Shown here piece after piece: positions 31,091-51,483 of a DNA stretch of 55,011 bases. The notes under the pieces were generated by a model that saw only the letters and a program-made list of their open reading frames with translations, had not been told where the DNA came from and ran no database searches. Within the stretch, counting starts at the first letter, position 1. Each line of letters begins with the position of its first letter. The DNA comes from Planctomycetota bacterium. GTDB lineage: Bacteria; Planctomycetota; GCA-002687715; DRQF01. The stretch is from contig DRQF01000056.1 in NCBI GenBank assembly GCA_011369445.1, forward strand, positions 1-55,011, given 5' to 3'. The translations under genes were made by a program, and so were the position numbers.

Positions 31091-32434
31091 TCAGTTTGAC
31101 TTGTGGCAGACGTTGATGGTCTGTCGCGAGACAACGCCTGGAAAACGCGAATCGGTCGCCTCGACGAGCAAGGAAGCGGAACTCGTCCCGCCCGCAAGCA
31201 CAGGCGTCTCGATCACGACCGAGTTCTGACTGATCTTGACGTCGAGCGCCACAAGGACGTTGCCCAGCTTGCCCGTCACGACCGTGGTCGAGGGTGAAAC
31301 GTCAAACGCCGGAAAGCTCACGGGCACCGACTCCCACACCGTCCCCTCCTCGGACTCCATGAGGAAATGGCGACGAGGCGCAACGGTCTCGAGATAGGAA
31401 ACGAGGGCTCCGTCATCCGCATCGCGCAATTGAATCACCTCCCCCTGGCGCAACGGCCGGGTCAACCCGACGTCCACCCACTGATGGAGGTTGTCACTCA
31501 CGACGGTGGCATGGCTGATCAGCTGCATCTGTGAAACCGAAACTCCCGCATAGACGACAACCTTCTTGCCATAGTCGTGATGGGCGCGAATCTTGTTCTG
31601 GCCGTCGCAGACACCTTCCGCATCGAAACGGGGAGGACGCGGAATACGTTTCCAGGAGGCCTTCAACACCCCTTGATCAGCCGCGACCCTCCAGTACCCC
31701 CAACGATGCTTCGACGACCCCCAGTGGAACGCATCGTCAGTGGTTCCGGCGGGACGGTAGAACCCCAGAACAGGTTCTCGGATCAACGCCCCCGCCGGCT
31801 TCGTCGCAAGACTCAAAGGGGCCACTGTGTCCGGTGTATCGGGAAGACCGTCCGCGTCGCTATCGACATACCGGTACACGTTTTCGCCGGCGGCATCGAA
31901 GACATAGAGCCGGTTCTCCACGATGTCTCCCACGAGGTAGACTCGGCCGGCGGGCGCCTCGGGAATGAGTTCCGTCAAGGCGAGATTCGTCGGAGGTGGG
32001 TTCACCCCCGACCACGGACAGTAGAAGACGGACGACTTGCCGTTCGATTTGAGGCCCGTGACATAGAACCCAACGACTTGGGAGACCCCGTTGGCGTCCG
32101 GCTGCTCGAAGCTGCGCAACCCAAGAACGTACTGGAGTCCCGTGCTCAACGTCCCGACATCGGAGGTGAGACCGGACGATTCGAGCTTCCGCACACCTAA
32201 GTCACCGTGGCGCGGGTGGAAAAGGATGATGTGGCTGTTGACCGTGATCTGGCCAACCTGATTGAGCACGCCATCGAGCCAAACGGCGTCGATCCCAGAC
32301 AAGGCCGGATGCCCCACATCTCCACCGAGAGCGAAGGGGGTGTCATCCACCCAGCTGGGCATTCCGGGATTGATCTGTGCAAAGCCGTTTGCAGACAACC
32401 CCAGCAGAAGAATCATCGCGTAGAATAGCCTCAT
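31091..32434 (-). CDS. exported protein of unknown function
   Basis: 447 residues starting MRLFYAMILLLGLSANGFAQ, a clear signal peptide cut after FAQ. The mature protein is beta-rich with few Cys. It contains one Asp-rich loop (YVDSDADGLPDTPDT, thrombospondin-3/calcium-loop type) and ends with an Ig-like stretch (TVVTGKLGNVLVALDVKISQ). I do not recognise the family. The ATG at 32434 has GGAGG six bases upstream and overlaps as ATGA the end of a 13-codon leader frame that starts inside the duplicated leader. Probably periplasmic or surface exposed. Confidence 0.72.
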   Translation of the reverse strand: MRLFYAMILLLGLSANGFAQINPGMPSWVDDTPFALGGDVGHPALSGIDAVWLDGVLNQVGQITVNSHIILFHPRHGDLGVRKLESSGLTSDVGTLSTGLQYVLGLRSFEQPDANGVSQVVGFYVTGLKSNGKSSVFYCPWSGVNPPPTNLALTELIPEAPAGRVYLVGDIVENRLYVFDAAGENVYRYVDSDADGLPDTPDTVAPLSLATKPAGALIREPVLGFYRPAGTTDDAFHWGSSKHRWGYWRVAADQGVLKASWKRIPRPPRFDAEGVCDGQNKIRAHHDYGKKVVVYAGVSVSQMQLISHATVVSDNLHQWVDVGLTRPLRQGEVIQLRDADDGALVSYLETVAPRRHFLMESEEGTVWESVPVSFPAFDVSPSTTVVTGKLGNVLVALDVKISQNSVVIETPVLAGGTSSASLLVEATDSRFPGVVSRQTINVCHKSN

Positions 32435-32475
32435 TCTGCAACCTCCGTTGAAGAACGTGGAGTCTTGATCATGAA
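32434..32475 (-). CDS. possible 13-codon leader peptide MIKTPRSSTEVAE
   Basis: The duplicated copy of the pseudopilin start region supplies an ATG and MIKTPRSS, then diverges and stops at a TGA that overlaps the ATG of the exported-protein gene (ATGA). It contains the GGAGG of the downstream gene, so translation of the leader could couple to it. Whether it is translated is unknown. Confidence 0.35.
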
Positions 32476-32563
32476 TGGTCTCGCAGAGAGGCCTGGACTC
32501 GCCGGACCATAGCACAACGCCCAAGGCGGCGAGACGGAAAGGTTTCGATTTGATGGGGCGCCC
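32450..32563 (-). repeat. 114-bp duplicated leader, copy 2
   Basis: Second copy of 30806-30919, here in front of the exported-protein gene at 31091-32434. It keeps the ATG ATC AAG ACT start of the pseudopilin but not the rest of that gene. Confidence 0.9.
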
Positions 32564-32582
32564 CGGCGACGAAACCTGGACT

Positions 32583-32802
32583 GGAGGCTCTATCCTTCAC
32601 GTGACGCCACGTGACAGGGATTGCCCCGCCCGGCGTTCGCGGGACGAGGACGTCCCGACTCCAACGCCGGTCCACAATACGACGCCCTCTCCCCTTCTCT
32701 ACGCGGCCACGAACTGGGGAGAGGAGGCTTCAGCCGTCACTTGACGCCACCTGCAAGGATCACGACCCCCGCCGTTCGCGGGGCGGGGGCGCCCCGGCTT
32801 CA
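32583..32802. repeat. pair of ~80-bp imperfect direct repeats with conserved hairpin
   Basis: Segment 32583-32662 and segment 32723-32802 align along their length (both start GGAGGCT, share TGACGCCAC and GTTCGCGGG). Each ends with a hairpin of six pairs and a four-base loop: GGGACG/CGTCCC in the first, GGGGCG/CGCCCC in the second. One A-T pair is thus replaced by G-C. They fill most of the 400-base gap between metK (3' side) and the exported-protein gene; nothing else is seen there. Confidence 0.6.
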
Positions 32803-32834
32803 AGAGAAAGGATGCGTGATGGCCGAGCCGGCGG

Positions 32835-34013
32835 TCAGAGGCCGGCGTCGGCCCGGAGGGCTTCGGCGCGATCCGTGCGCTCCCAGGTGAAGCCCGGCTC
32901 GTTTCGCCCGAAATGCCCGTGGTAGGACGTCTGGCGATAGCGGGGCTTCAGAAGATCGAGATCCCGAATGATGGCCGCAGGGCGCAGGTCGAAGTGTTTG
33001 CGCACGAGCTCTTCGATGCGATCCTCGCCGACGCGGTTCGTCCCGTAGGTCATGACCCGGATCGAGAGAGGCTCGGCCACGCCGATGGCATAGGAGAGCT
33101 GCAACTCGCAGCGTCCGGCCAGACCCGCCGCCACGATGTTCTTGGCCACCCAACGGGCGGCGTACGCCGCGGAGCGGTCCACCTTGCTGGGGTCCTTGCC
33201 GCTGAAGGCGCCGCCACCGTGCCGGCCCATCCCGCCATAGGTGTCGACGATGATCTTTCGACCTGTGAGGCCGCAGTCGCCCATGGGGCCGCCGACGACG
33301 AAACGTCCGGTGGGATTCACGTGGTAGGTCGTCTTGTCGTCCAACAGTTCCGCGGGGATCGTCTTCTTGATCAACTCCTCGACGACCCACTCACGAATCT
33401 GCGACTGTTCCACGTCGGGCGAATGCTGGGTCGAGACCAAGACCGTGTCCACGCGCACGGGACGCTCGCCGTCGTATTGGACCGTCACCTGGGATTTGGA
33501 ATCGGGACGCAGCCAATCGACCACGCCCTTCTGCCTGCTCTCTGCCAGAGCCGCCACCAGATGGTGCGAGAGCATGATGGGCATGGGCATGAGTTCCGGC
33601 GTCTCCTCGCAGGCGTAGCCGAACATGATGCCCTGATCGCCCGCACCTTGGGCCGCAACCTCGTCGTCGACGGGCTTGCCCTCCGTGTCGACGCCCATCG
33701 CGATGTCGGGGGACTGCTTGTCCAGGGTCACGACGACGCCGCAAGTCTCCGAGCAAAAACCAATGTCGGAACTCGTGTAGCCGATCTCACGGATGACCTC
33801 GCGGACGAGGCCCGGGATGTCGACGTACGTGGAACTCGTCACTTCGCCGGCCACGACGACGAGACCTGTCGTCACCATGGTCTCACAGGCCACCCGACTA
33901 TTCGGATCGTCCATCAGCATGGCGTCGAGAATGGCATCCGAAATCTGATCCGACACCTTGTCGGGGTGCCCCATGGACACGGACTCGGACGTAAACACCC
34001 TGGGTTCAGACAT
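32835..34013 (-). CDS. metK: S-adenosylmethionine synthetase
   Basis: 392 residues. [20 protein letters not shown] is the canonical N-terminus with the ATP-phosphate His. [12 protein letters not shown] and [21 protein letters not shown] are the two signature motifs with catalytic Lys and Asp, and [18 protein letters not shown] is intact. It makes SAM from ATP and methionine, which the radical-SAM and methyltransferase genes of this window would use. Its start overlaps the waaA stop by eight bases, so it is expressed from an upstream promoter or by coupling. No SAM riboswitch is visible upstream. Confidence 0.97.
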
Positions 34014-35301
34014 GCGTTGCTCCTTGCGGCTCCGGCAGGATGTCCTGCAGAAGCTCCATCGTTTTTCTCGTTGCGCCCCGGCGGCGGTTCACCACTTCCC
34101 GGGCCGCCGTTTCGGCGTGGGCCCTGAGCCCAGGGTCGGAAAAGAGGTCCGAGGCGGTTCGAATGATATCCACGGAACCCGTCACGCTCCATCCCGCTTT
34201 TTCGTCGATCAGCTCCTGCGCCACGTCCGCCATCGACTCCACGTGGGGGCCGAAAAGAACCGGCCGCCCCTGGGAAGCGGGCTCCAGCAGGTTATGCCCC
34301 CCCACGGGGACCAGGCTCCCACCCAGGAAAACCACGTCCGCGACGGCGAAAAAGTCCATCAACTCCCCCATGGTATCGACCACGAGGACCGTTTCGCTTG
34401 CGTCCTCCGGGCCTTCGCGAGAGCGAAGTCGGGCGGTCACACCCTCTTTCTCGACGAGAGTCCGGATTTCTTCGGCCCGATCCACGTGGCGGGGGGCAAG
34501 GATGAGGCGTAGATGGGGAAACCGCTCTCGAAGGCCCTTCCAGGCCCGCAGAACGATCTCCTCTTCCTTCGGGTGGGTGCTGCCGGCCAAGAAAACGGGA
34601 GAATCCCCAAGAGCCAGTTCCTCCCGCAAGCCTTCCGCGGCGGCTCGCGACGGCGCGACCGGGAGATTATCCACCTTGAGATTCCCGGTGACGACCACCC
34701 TCTCGGAGCCGACTCCCAGCTCCCTCAATCTTGCGGCGTGCACCTCGCTCTGGGCCCCGAAGGCGGCGACGGCCTCCAGCATCCCCGGAGCCCAAGCGGC
34801 CAGCTTCCGATAGCGGGCGACCGACGTCGCAGACATCTTTGCGGACGCGACCACGACGGGAACCTCGGCGGCAGCGGCCATCCGCAGCCAGTTCGGCCAA
34901 AGTTCGAGCTCGAGGAGGATGAGGGCGCGAGGCCGCAGCGCCCTGAAGAAGCGACGCAACGTCCAAGTGAAATCGAAGGGTGCAAAGATCACCCGACACT
35001 CCGGATACCGAGCGCGCGCCATGTCGAATCCGGCCCGGGTGCCGACACTGAGGACGATTTCGTGGAGGGGGTTCGCCTTCTCGAGTTCCTCCACGAGGCG
35101 GCGCGCGGCCAGGATCTCACCCACGGAAACGCCGTGAATCCAGAGGCTCCGATGGGGTGTGGAGAGCGGCTCCGGCCCGCGCAGACGTGCCCTCACCGGC
35201 GCCAAGGGGCGACGGAGCACCAGCGCGCGCCAGATCCAATAGATGGGGCCCGCCGTGACGAAGGCGAACAGATAGAGAGCATCCCAGACACGCGGGCCCA
35301 T
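34006..35301 (-). CDS. waaA: 3-deoxy-D-manno-octulosonic acid transferase
   Basis: 431 residues. An N-terminal membrane helix ([16 protein letters not shown]) anchors it. [20 protein letters not shown] holds the catalytic Glu region of Kdt[11 protein letters not shown] the acceptor-side acidic pair, and [15 protein letters not shown] and [20 protein letters not shown] the donor site. It adds KDO to lipid A precursors, so the organism makes lipopolysaccharide or a KDO-lipid. It lies between secA and metK on the same strand. Confidence 0.93.
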
Positions 35302-48748: not shown

Positions 48749-49732
48749 TCAGCGGCGCTGGAGCGCCTTCATCTTCTTTTCCAGCCGGGCGACCAGAGCC
48801 TGCCCCTGCTTCTCGGCATGGGTGTCGGCGAGCTTCTCGGTCAGCTTCTGCACCTTGTGAATGACGGCTTTGAGCTTCCTGGCGCTGCGGAGCTTCTGCG
48901 CGTCCGCCTCGATCTTACGCAACGCCTTTTGCGCCTTGATGACCTTCTTGGCCATCGGGTCCTTCTTGACTTCCGCCAGAATCGCGGCGGCCTCTTCACC
49001 TTCCGGGTAGCCCTTCAAGGCTTTGGCGAGGGCCTTGCCGCGAGTCACGACAGCCAGGTAGTCGCCTTGGTCCTTGAGGCTCTTCAACGCCGCCACTTTG
49101 CCGCGCACCATATCGCGGACGACACCTGCGATCTGCTGGAGGAGTTCGTCGTCGCTTTGGGAAAGGGCGTCAGCTTCATCGATCGCCTTGCCGAACGCGC
49201 CCTTCTTCAGAGCGGTGCGCAATTTCTTGGTGGACGCGGGCCATTCCCAAACGGGCTTCTTCAACGCGCCGTCCAGATGCTTTTCAATGATGTCCGGAGT
49301 CAGGTTGCCGGGATGACCGCGCCACACGATCGTCCCACCGGGGTCGACGAGGAACGCATGAGGGATGCCGGTTACACCGAGTGCTCGTGAGAGCTTTTTC
49401 CCTTTGTCATAGGCATAGGCGTACTTGGCGCCCTTCGCCTTGACCCAGGGTTCCGTCTTCGAAGGAGATTCACCGGTCACGCCGATGATGCTCAGGCCGG
49501 CCTCGCTGAACTTGTCGTTGAGTTCATTGAGATGCGGCACCGAAGCGGCACAAGGGCCTCACCAGTAGGCGAAGAACTCGATGAGGACCAAGCGGCCCAT
49601 GAAGTCATCGAAGGATTTGGCTGGCGTCTGGCTGAGCCCCTCCAACTGGACCGGCGGGAGGGGGGACCCCACCTGCGCTCCGAGGGAGGAAGCGAGCGCC
49701 AGAGCGGCCACGAGCAGCAAGCATCGTCTCAT
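48749..49732 (-). CDS. selenocysteine-containing TlpA/thioredoxin-fold exported protein
   Basis: 327 residues if the in-frame TGA at 49559-49561 is read as selenocysteine (residue 58). The ATG at 49732 opens a signal peptide (MRRCLLLVAALALASSLGAQ). A TlpA-like lead follows (QLEGLSQTPAKSFDDFMGR), then LIEFFAYWUGPCAASVPHL, where UGPC replaces the CxxC redox motif. The thioredoxin fold continues after the TGA in the same frame: GLSIIGVTGES, GIPHAFLVDPGGTIVWRG with the cis-Pro. The C-terminal ~170 residues are a Lys/Ala/Glu-rich helical region. Conventional gene finding would start at 49540 and lose the active site. Expected role: periplasmic or secreted thiol oxidoreductase. Sec machinery genes are outside the window. 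A nonsense mutation or base-call error is the alternative. Confidence 0.78.
49507..49561 (-). promoter_or_regulatory. candidate bacterial SECIS hairpins at the UGA
   Basis: On the minus strand TGAG (including the TGA) pairs with CTCA at 49528-49531. Inside it, TGTGCCGC (49545-49552) faces GTGCCGCA (49533-49540) around a TTCG loop with one C-C mismatch. A second, perfect six-pair hairpin TGAACT/AGTTCA with an eight-base loop lies at 49507-49526. Bacterial SECIS stems lie directly after the UGA, so either could bind SelB; the first has its loop 14 bases past the UGA, slightly close. Confidence 0.45.
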
Positions 49733-50385: not shown

Positions 50386-51399
50386 TCAGAGTGAAAACGT
50401 GGACTTGACGGTGCGCCATAGCCCGGCCGGCCCGGAAAAGGTGTCGTCCACGGCCGTGGCCTCATACCCCGAATGAACCATGCAGTCGCGGCACTTCTCA
50501 TTCTTGGTGTGACCATAGCGGTCCCAATCCGTGGACTCCATCAGTTGCTGAAACGACTCCGCATATCCCTCTTGAAGGAGGTAGCAGGGTTTCTGCCAAC
50601 CGAAGATGTTGTAGGTCGGATTCCCCCAAGGGCTGCAGTGGTATTCGATCTCACCCTGGAGAAACCTCAAGAAGAGCGGCGAGTGGTTGAAACGCCACCG
50701 CTTCTTGGGTTGGGTGAGGATTCTGGAGAAAAGTTCCTGCGTGCGTTGTCGTCCGAGGAATCCACTTTGGTCCGGCGCTTTGTCATAACTGTAGCCCGGC
50801 GAAAGCATCATCCCTTCCACGTCGAGATCCATCATCTCGTCGAAGAAGCCCCGCACTTTGTCCGGATCCGCCCCCTCGAAAAGCGTGGTGTTCGTGGTGA
50901 CGCGGAATCCCTTTTTTACGGCGAGACGGATGGCCTCCACCGCCTGCTCGAACGTCCCTTCACGACACACGGCGAAGTCATGCTCGTCCTTGGGGCCGTC
51001 CATGTGGACACTGAAACTGAGATATTTCGAGGGCGTGTAATCGCCCTTTTCAATTTTCTCCTTCAACAGCAGCGCATTCGTGCAGAGGTAGATGTACTTG
51101 CGTCGCTCGATGAGCCCACGAACGATGGCCGGCATCTCCGGGTGCATCAGGGGCTCTCCGCCAGGGATGGACACGATCGGCGCGCCGCACTCCTCGACGG
51201 CGTTGAAACATTGCTCCGCCGTGAGCTGTCGCCGGAGGATATGTCCTGGATACTGGATCTTGCCGCAGCCCGCGCACGAGAGGTTGCACCTGAAAAGCGG
51301 CTCCAGCATCAGCACGAGCGGGTAGCGTTTCCGCCGTCGAAGCTTCTGCTTCACAACGTAGCTCGCCACTGTCCAGATCTGCGATAACGGTACCGGCAT
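50386..51399 (-). CDS. hpnH: adenosylhopane synthase HpnH (radical SAM)
   Basis: 337 residues. MPVPLSQIWTVASYVVKQKL is the typical HpnH N-terminus. The radical SAM cluster motif is CNLSCAGCGK (CX3CX2C), with PIVSIPGGEPLMHPEM, LSFSVHMDGPKDEHD and LSPGYSYDKAPDQ following. A C-terminal Cys cluster (KCRDCMVHSGYEA) is present as in the family. It joins a 5'-deoxyadenosyl group to diploptene, the first step to extended hopanoids. GAGGGG precedes the ATG at 51399; the frame is open to 51441 without similarity. Squalene-hopene cyclase is not in the window. Confidence 0.95.
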   Translation of the reverse strand: MPVPLSQIWTVASYVVKQKLRRRKRYPLVLMLEPLFRCNLSCAGCGKIQYPGHILRRQLTAEQCFNAVEECGAPIVSIPGGEPLMHPEMPAIVRGLIERRKYIYLCTNALLLKEKIEKGDYTPSKYLSFSVHMDGPKDEHDFAVCREGTFEQAVEAIRLAVKKGFRVTTNTTLFEGADPDKVRGFFDEMMDLDVEGMMLSPGYSYDKAPDQSGFLGRQRTQELFSRILTQPKKRWRFNHSPLFLRFLQGEIEYHCSPWGNPTYNIFGWQKPCYLLQEGYAESFQQLMESTDWDRYGHTKNEKCRDCMVHSGYEATAVDDTFSGPAGLWRTVKSTFSL

Positions 51400-51431
51400 T
51401 CCAATCCCCTCGATCGTCCCGCCATGGTACG

Positions 51432-51483
51432 CCCCCCCCAATTCGGGACAAGCACGCCCCCCGCGTCGCCCAATGGGGGGGGG
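51432..51483. repeat. C8 and G9 homopolymer tracts facing each other
   Basis: Eight C (51432-51439) and nine G (51475-51483) lie 35 bases apart in the divergent gap between hpnH and the LuxR-type regulator and could pair. Such runs are prone to slippage. Confidence 0.5.

Follow-up and report, generated by a model that had tools for sequence, protein, structure and literature searches.

Thiol:disulfide oxidoreductases of the Prx-like type, with selenocysteine (Sec) in a UxxC or UxxU active site, are already catalogued as a predicted selenoprotein family within PF00578 (excerpts of PMC9312934 and PMC13188914). TlpA/ResA-like domains with Sec also occur in the WAxxUGC_long ResA-like selenoproteins (NF041054) and in UGC-containing TlpA proteins (part of PMC13188914). 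Selenoproteins have been reported earlier from planctomycetes (PMC4807772). In the searched passages of two recent selenoprotein reviews there is no planctomycete example and the word itself is absent from both, while the selenoprotein-rich groups named there in one of them are anaerobic Thermodesulfobacteriota, Synergistota and Clostridia. The window analyzed here, a stretch of 55,011 nucleotides, is contig 56 of a Planctomycetota genome (4.5 Mb, 299 contigs, about 90% complete), and its minus strand contains a gene for a TlpA/ResA-like protein with an in-frame TGA at the active site (Table 1).

Relation to described families

Both the PF00578 domain and the UxxC active site are found in the product of this gene, which places it among the PF00578 UxxC selenoproteins. 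It shares with them the AhpC-TSA-type domain, Sec as the first residue of UxxC and the status of a predicted redox selenoprotein (excerpts of PMC9312934 and PMC13188914). It differs in its distribution throughout Planctomycetota, in its predicted export and, probably, in its conserved eight-helix tail. The best match by both sequence and fold is ResA. The ResA/TlpA/CcmG (DsbE) proteins have the same fold, the same position of the active site within it, a cis-Pro loop and probable export, but in the window protein Sec replaces the first Cys and a helical tail is added. Its scores lie below the NCBIfam cut-offs for ResA (69.9 against 170 bits), DsbE (55.9 against 123.15) and TlpA (44.4 against 230), and none of the seven neighboring genes scanned is for cytochrome c biogenesis. 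Compared with NF041054, the motif is UGPC rather than UGC, and the protein scores 46 bits where the cut-off is 300.

No NCBIfam model names the tailed Planctomycetota subfamily above its cut-off, and a literature search found no description of it. An earlier note on this DNA had called the protein an uncommon Sec architecture. That part does not hold for the active-site domain, as TlpA-like selenoproteins with WUGPC are known (excerpts of PMC9312934 and PMC13188914), but it stands for the tailed, phylum-wide subfamily. The protein is a member of an unnamed, tailed, Planctomycetota-wide and, by prediction, exported subfamily of an already known kind of redox selenoprotein.

Reading frame and domain structure

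When TGA is read as U, the frame 48752-49732 (minus strand) encodes 327 residues and contains a single internal TGA, U58, in the context ...LVLIEFFAYWUGPCAASVPHLNELN.... Translation thus bears out what the earlier note had described, namely a continuous frame broken only at this codon, which falls where the first Cys of WCGPC belongs, with the second Cys (Cys61) and the cis-Pro retained (residue 124, in the motif GIPH at residues 122-125). The frame is not a product of chance, because Pfam matches to AhpC-TSA (71.4 bits, cut-off 26), Redoxin and Thioredoxin_8 run continuously across the TGA and the alignment of homologues from 112 genomes continues through it. If the TGA is not read through, the longest ORF has 263 residues and a GTG start (48749-49540), the truncated protein lacking the active site that had been predicted as the outcome of standard annotation. 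The hydrophobic N-terminus, MRRCLLLVAALALASSLGAQ, is a candidate signal peptide, as judged by eye only.

Table 1. Features of the selenoprotein gene in the window.
Feature	Position	Strand	Description	Basis
Selenoprotein gene, TlpA/ResA-like thioredoxin-fold protein, putatively exported	48749..49732	-	327 residues, one Sec	
Probable signal peptide	49676..49732	-	residues 1-19	sequence by eye; low pLDDT over residues 1-16
TlpA/ResA-type thioredoxin-fold domain	49253..49675	-	residues 20 to ~155-160	Pfam, sequence relatives, predicted structure, Foldseek
In-frame TGA	49559..49561	-	Sec58, first residue of UxxC (WUGPC)	translation; TGA in 97/127 homologues
Cys61	49550..49552	-	resolving residue of UxxC	invariant in close-orthologue alignment
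Candidate bSECIS hairpin	49532..49551	-	positions 11-30 from the T of TGA; loop UUCGGU	-6.5 kcal/mol
GTG start expected from standard annotation	49538..49540	-	product of 263 residues without active site	ORF list
C-terminal alpha-helical domain	48752..49252	-	eight helices, residues 161-327	predicted structure
Terminal stop TGA	48749-48751	-		

In an AlphaFold2 model built with ten orthologues (mean pLDDT 87), a ResA/TlpA-type thioredoxin fold is followed by eight helices. Foldseek matches for the thioredoxin part are ResA, DsbE and CcmG, and the solved relatives nearest by sequence include ResA, CcmG/DsbE and TlpA. By analogy with these proteins, the likely role of the window protein is that of a periplasmic thiol-disulfide reductase. 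An alternative is that the protein is indeed a selenoprotein but acts as a peroxidase or as an oxidant of the DsbA type. AhpC-TSA and Redoxin give the best Pfam scores and Sec is known in peroxiredoxins (part of PMC13188914), so this reading retains some weight; however, the WUGPC active site and its cis-Pro loop, the closeness to ResA, CcmG and DsbE structures in both sequence and fold, and the presence in the same genome of separate Sec peroxiredoxin candidates (TPTU and TPGU types) make it unlikely.

The tail, modeled alone with 23 orthologues, reaches a pLDDT of 96.9 in AlphaFold2. Its 167-168 residues are confidently predicted as helical, in agreement with the helical tail of about 170 residues noticed earlier. 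Compared with folds in the PDB, it has no match at E 0.001, the best being weak matches to BamD, TPR and designed-repeat proteins (E 0.2 or worse). The helical-hairpin pattern had pointed to a TPR domain, but this assignment was rejected: no TPR Pfam model was found in ten members at E 0.1, and the fold matches are weak. A weak match of the tail to NF041382 (VPGUxxT; 24 bits, one of ten members) was likewise set aside. As modeled, the tail is a conserved all-helical domain without a significant PDB fold match.

Upstream of the selenoprotein gene lies a radical SAM/DUF3463 gene (50386-51441, minus strand), the product of which we take to resemble the HpnH type of hopanoid biosynthesis. On the other side, gyrA- and gyrB-type genes are found on the opposite strand. 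When the window was compared with the ortholog loci for a conserved neighborhood, the selenoprotein gene itself was all that they shared.

Decoding and conservation of the in-frame TGA

The earlier note had proposed looking for selA, selB, selD and tRNA-Sec in the genome, and all four are present above curated cut-offs: selA with 521 bits, selB with 364.5 bits, selD with 370.6 bits and a tRNA-Sec with anticodon tca (67.1 bits). They are located on contigs other than that of the window; selA, selD and tRNA-Sec lie together on contig 111 and selB on contig 26. The host selD has an in-frame TGA of its own (CASGGGUAAK), placing Sec at the UxxK site, which is the Sec position listed for SelD (part of PMC9312934).

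At the level of the order, 12 of 12 genomes have a match, and nine orthologues share the tail, all of them with a single TGA at this codon. The closest related loci come nearly all from Planctomycetota and include the complete chromosome of Planctomycetes bacterium Pla86, which carries the TGA form. Across a phylum sample of 392 Planctomycetota genomes (family membership at E <= 1e-40), the tailed family is present in 112. The active-site codon was read directly in 127 homologues (the "stops inside" flags of genome searches may count the terminal TGA): 97 have TGA, 18 TGC, 4 TGT and 8 another codon. The position is thus occupied by Sec or by Cys (22 homologues), as the proposed check of homologues had anticipated. 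Eight degenerate homologues lack the catalytic residues, the first or both of the active-site Cys/Sec being gone (e.g., TTGDQQC, WSERC; D, E, N, S or R at the position); these are possible non-catalytic paralogues.

SelB was detected in 234 of the 392 genomes and is enriched among those with the TGA form: it occurs in 85 of the 92 TGA-form genomes vs. 149 of the remaining 300 (Fisher p = 5e-15). The seven TGA-form genomes in which no SelB match was found at the cut used are all represented by fragmented assemblies whose completeness does not exceed 90%. SelB is kept in 13 of the 16 genomes with only the Cys form, and Cys forms are therefore not a simple marker of machinery loss. In a quick maximum-likelihood tree from which the active-site position was left out, there are at least 10 Sec/Cys interchanges, which looks like the expected picture of repeated replacement of Sec and Cys within one family.

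Because the host has a complete Sec machinery and TGA stands at the same active-site codon in 97 of 127 related genes, the in-frame TGA of the window gene is almost certainly read as Sec. The claim that the organism decodes UGA as Sec is supported in the same way, by the machinery and by the Sec/Cys homologues. It is very improbable that UGA is a true stop here and that the product is the 263-residue protein, a helical scaffold that has lost its active site. A GTG start is available for it at 49540, and the homologues without active-site residues show that non-catalytic forms exist in the family, but homologues conserve the sequence that precedes the TGA, Cys61 is invariant in close orthologues and the 22 homologues with Cys have no stop at the position. 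Even less probable is that an ordinary Cys-type TlpA gene has been misread in sequencing or assembly or has acquired a nonsense mutation. The draft genome is fragmented, and TGC or TGT is one base away from TGA; however, the 97 homologues with TGA at this codon come from 92 genomes, with the complete Pla86 chromosome carrying it too, and this answers the question raised earlier of whether 49559-49561 might in truth read TGC or TGT, practically excluding an error. Reassignment of UGA to Trp, Cys or Gly, under which the frame would also be open, can be dismissed, as the internal TGA is found at the catalytic position only, the full Sec machinery is present and TGA still serves as an ordinary stop for the window gene, for the neighboring peptidase M14, radical SAM/DUF3463 and response-regulator genes and for the majority of the long window ORFs that were examined.

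The hairpin just downstream of the TGA has about 7.6 expected pairs vs. 1.7 in synonymous shuffles, of which 7% reach as many. In the published bSECIS model (part of PMC13188914) the loop lies 16-37 nt after the UGA and has a G in its first two positions, whereas the loop in the window starts 14 nt after the codon and has no G there; both spacing and loop fall outside the strict model. When segments of 60-62 nt around and after the TGA were folded as single sequences (MFE), no unusual stability was seen, and an Rfam scan of the window gave no match. Across the Sec genes (n=97), a hairpin centered about 22 nt from the codon has 4.0 expected pairs vs. 2.7 in synonymous-codon shuffles (mean z 0.51, s.e. 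0.16), whereas the Cys genes (n=22) show no excess (3.0 vs. 3.1, mean z 0.03, s.e. 0.22), the standard errors being too small because the tested sequences are related.

Further Sec candidates and a proposed mechanism

The host genome contains 12 AhpC-TSA matches, six of which are flagged with a TGA, and in each of these the TGA falls on a catalytic Cys. They comprise the window gene, three WUGPC sites (contigs 49 and 42), TPTUSRE and TPGUTLEC. The contig 49 protein (from position 2957) has two thioredoxin-type sites, WUGPC and WUGWC, both with in-frame TGA, and is a candidate double-Sec protein; two relatives have WUGPC/WUGYC and WUPPC/WUGYC. On contig 42 (649-2091), two TlpA-type domains follow each other closely, both with WUGPC. 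The peroxiredoxin-like genes have their TGA at the peroxidatic position (TPTUSRE, contig 90, 19922-20302; TPGUTLEC, contig 299, 8169-8540). The sole DsbD_TM match is a long frame on contig 116 with one in-frame TGA, located in the C-terminal thioredoxin-like domain (UPNC, in VDFTGFTUPNCRDIE). A WAxxUGC-type gene (KLLIVNWASWUGC) is located no more than about 2 kb away on this contig, both at approximately 31759-34397. Counting the AhpC-TSA sites, the second contig 49 site, SelD, DsbD and WAxxUGC, there are at least nine candidate Sec sites outside the window gene.

In the mechanism proposed here, UGA codon 58 would be decoded by the host SelA, SelB, SelD and tRNA-Sec, with help from the short stem-loop just downstream, and the protein would be exported to the periplasm. 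By analogy with ResA/TlpA, Sec58 would be the attacking nucleophile and Cys61 the resolving thiol, so that a selenenylsulfide would be formed and released while disulfides, or a related oxidized thiol, are reduced in the periplasm. A DsbD-type membrane reductase probably recharges the protein, DsbD possibly supplying the reducing power, and the eight-helix tail is probably a scaffold for binding partners or substrates. We hold this joint explanation, a genuine selenoprotein made by the host Sec system and acting as an exported Sec58/Cys61 thiol-disulfide reductase with DsbD-type recharging and a tail scaffold, with high confidence. The frame, the Sec machinery, the conserved UGA, the Sec/Cys exchange and, as predictions, the folds were established here, while Sec insertion itself, export, the redox direction, the recharging partner and the function of the tail are inferred.

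A wider reading, more doubtful than probable, is that Planctomycetota have an unrecognized exported selenoprotein family, joining a WUGPC domain to a novel helical domain, that takes part in a relay in this genome. A DsbD carrying Sec in the thioredoxin domain at its C-terminus would then pass electrons to Sec-containing TlpA proteins. If this is true, the host would have a Sec-rich periplasmic reducing pathway running from selenium to selenium.

With this subfamily, the use of Sec in Planctomycetota grows beyond the few genes reported so far to include a TGA form found in 92 of 392 sampled genomes, about a quarter. Wherever annotation treats TGA as a stop, the genes of this subfamily will be cut in two at the active site. 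With natural pairs of Sec and Cys forms in a single family, it is well suited to the question of why Sec is retained.
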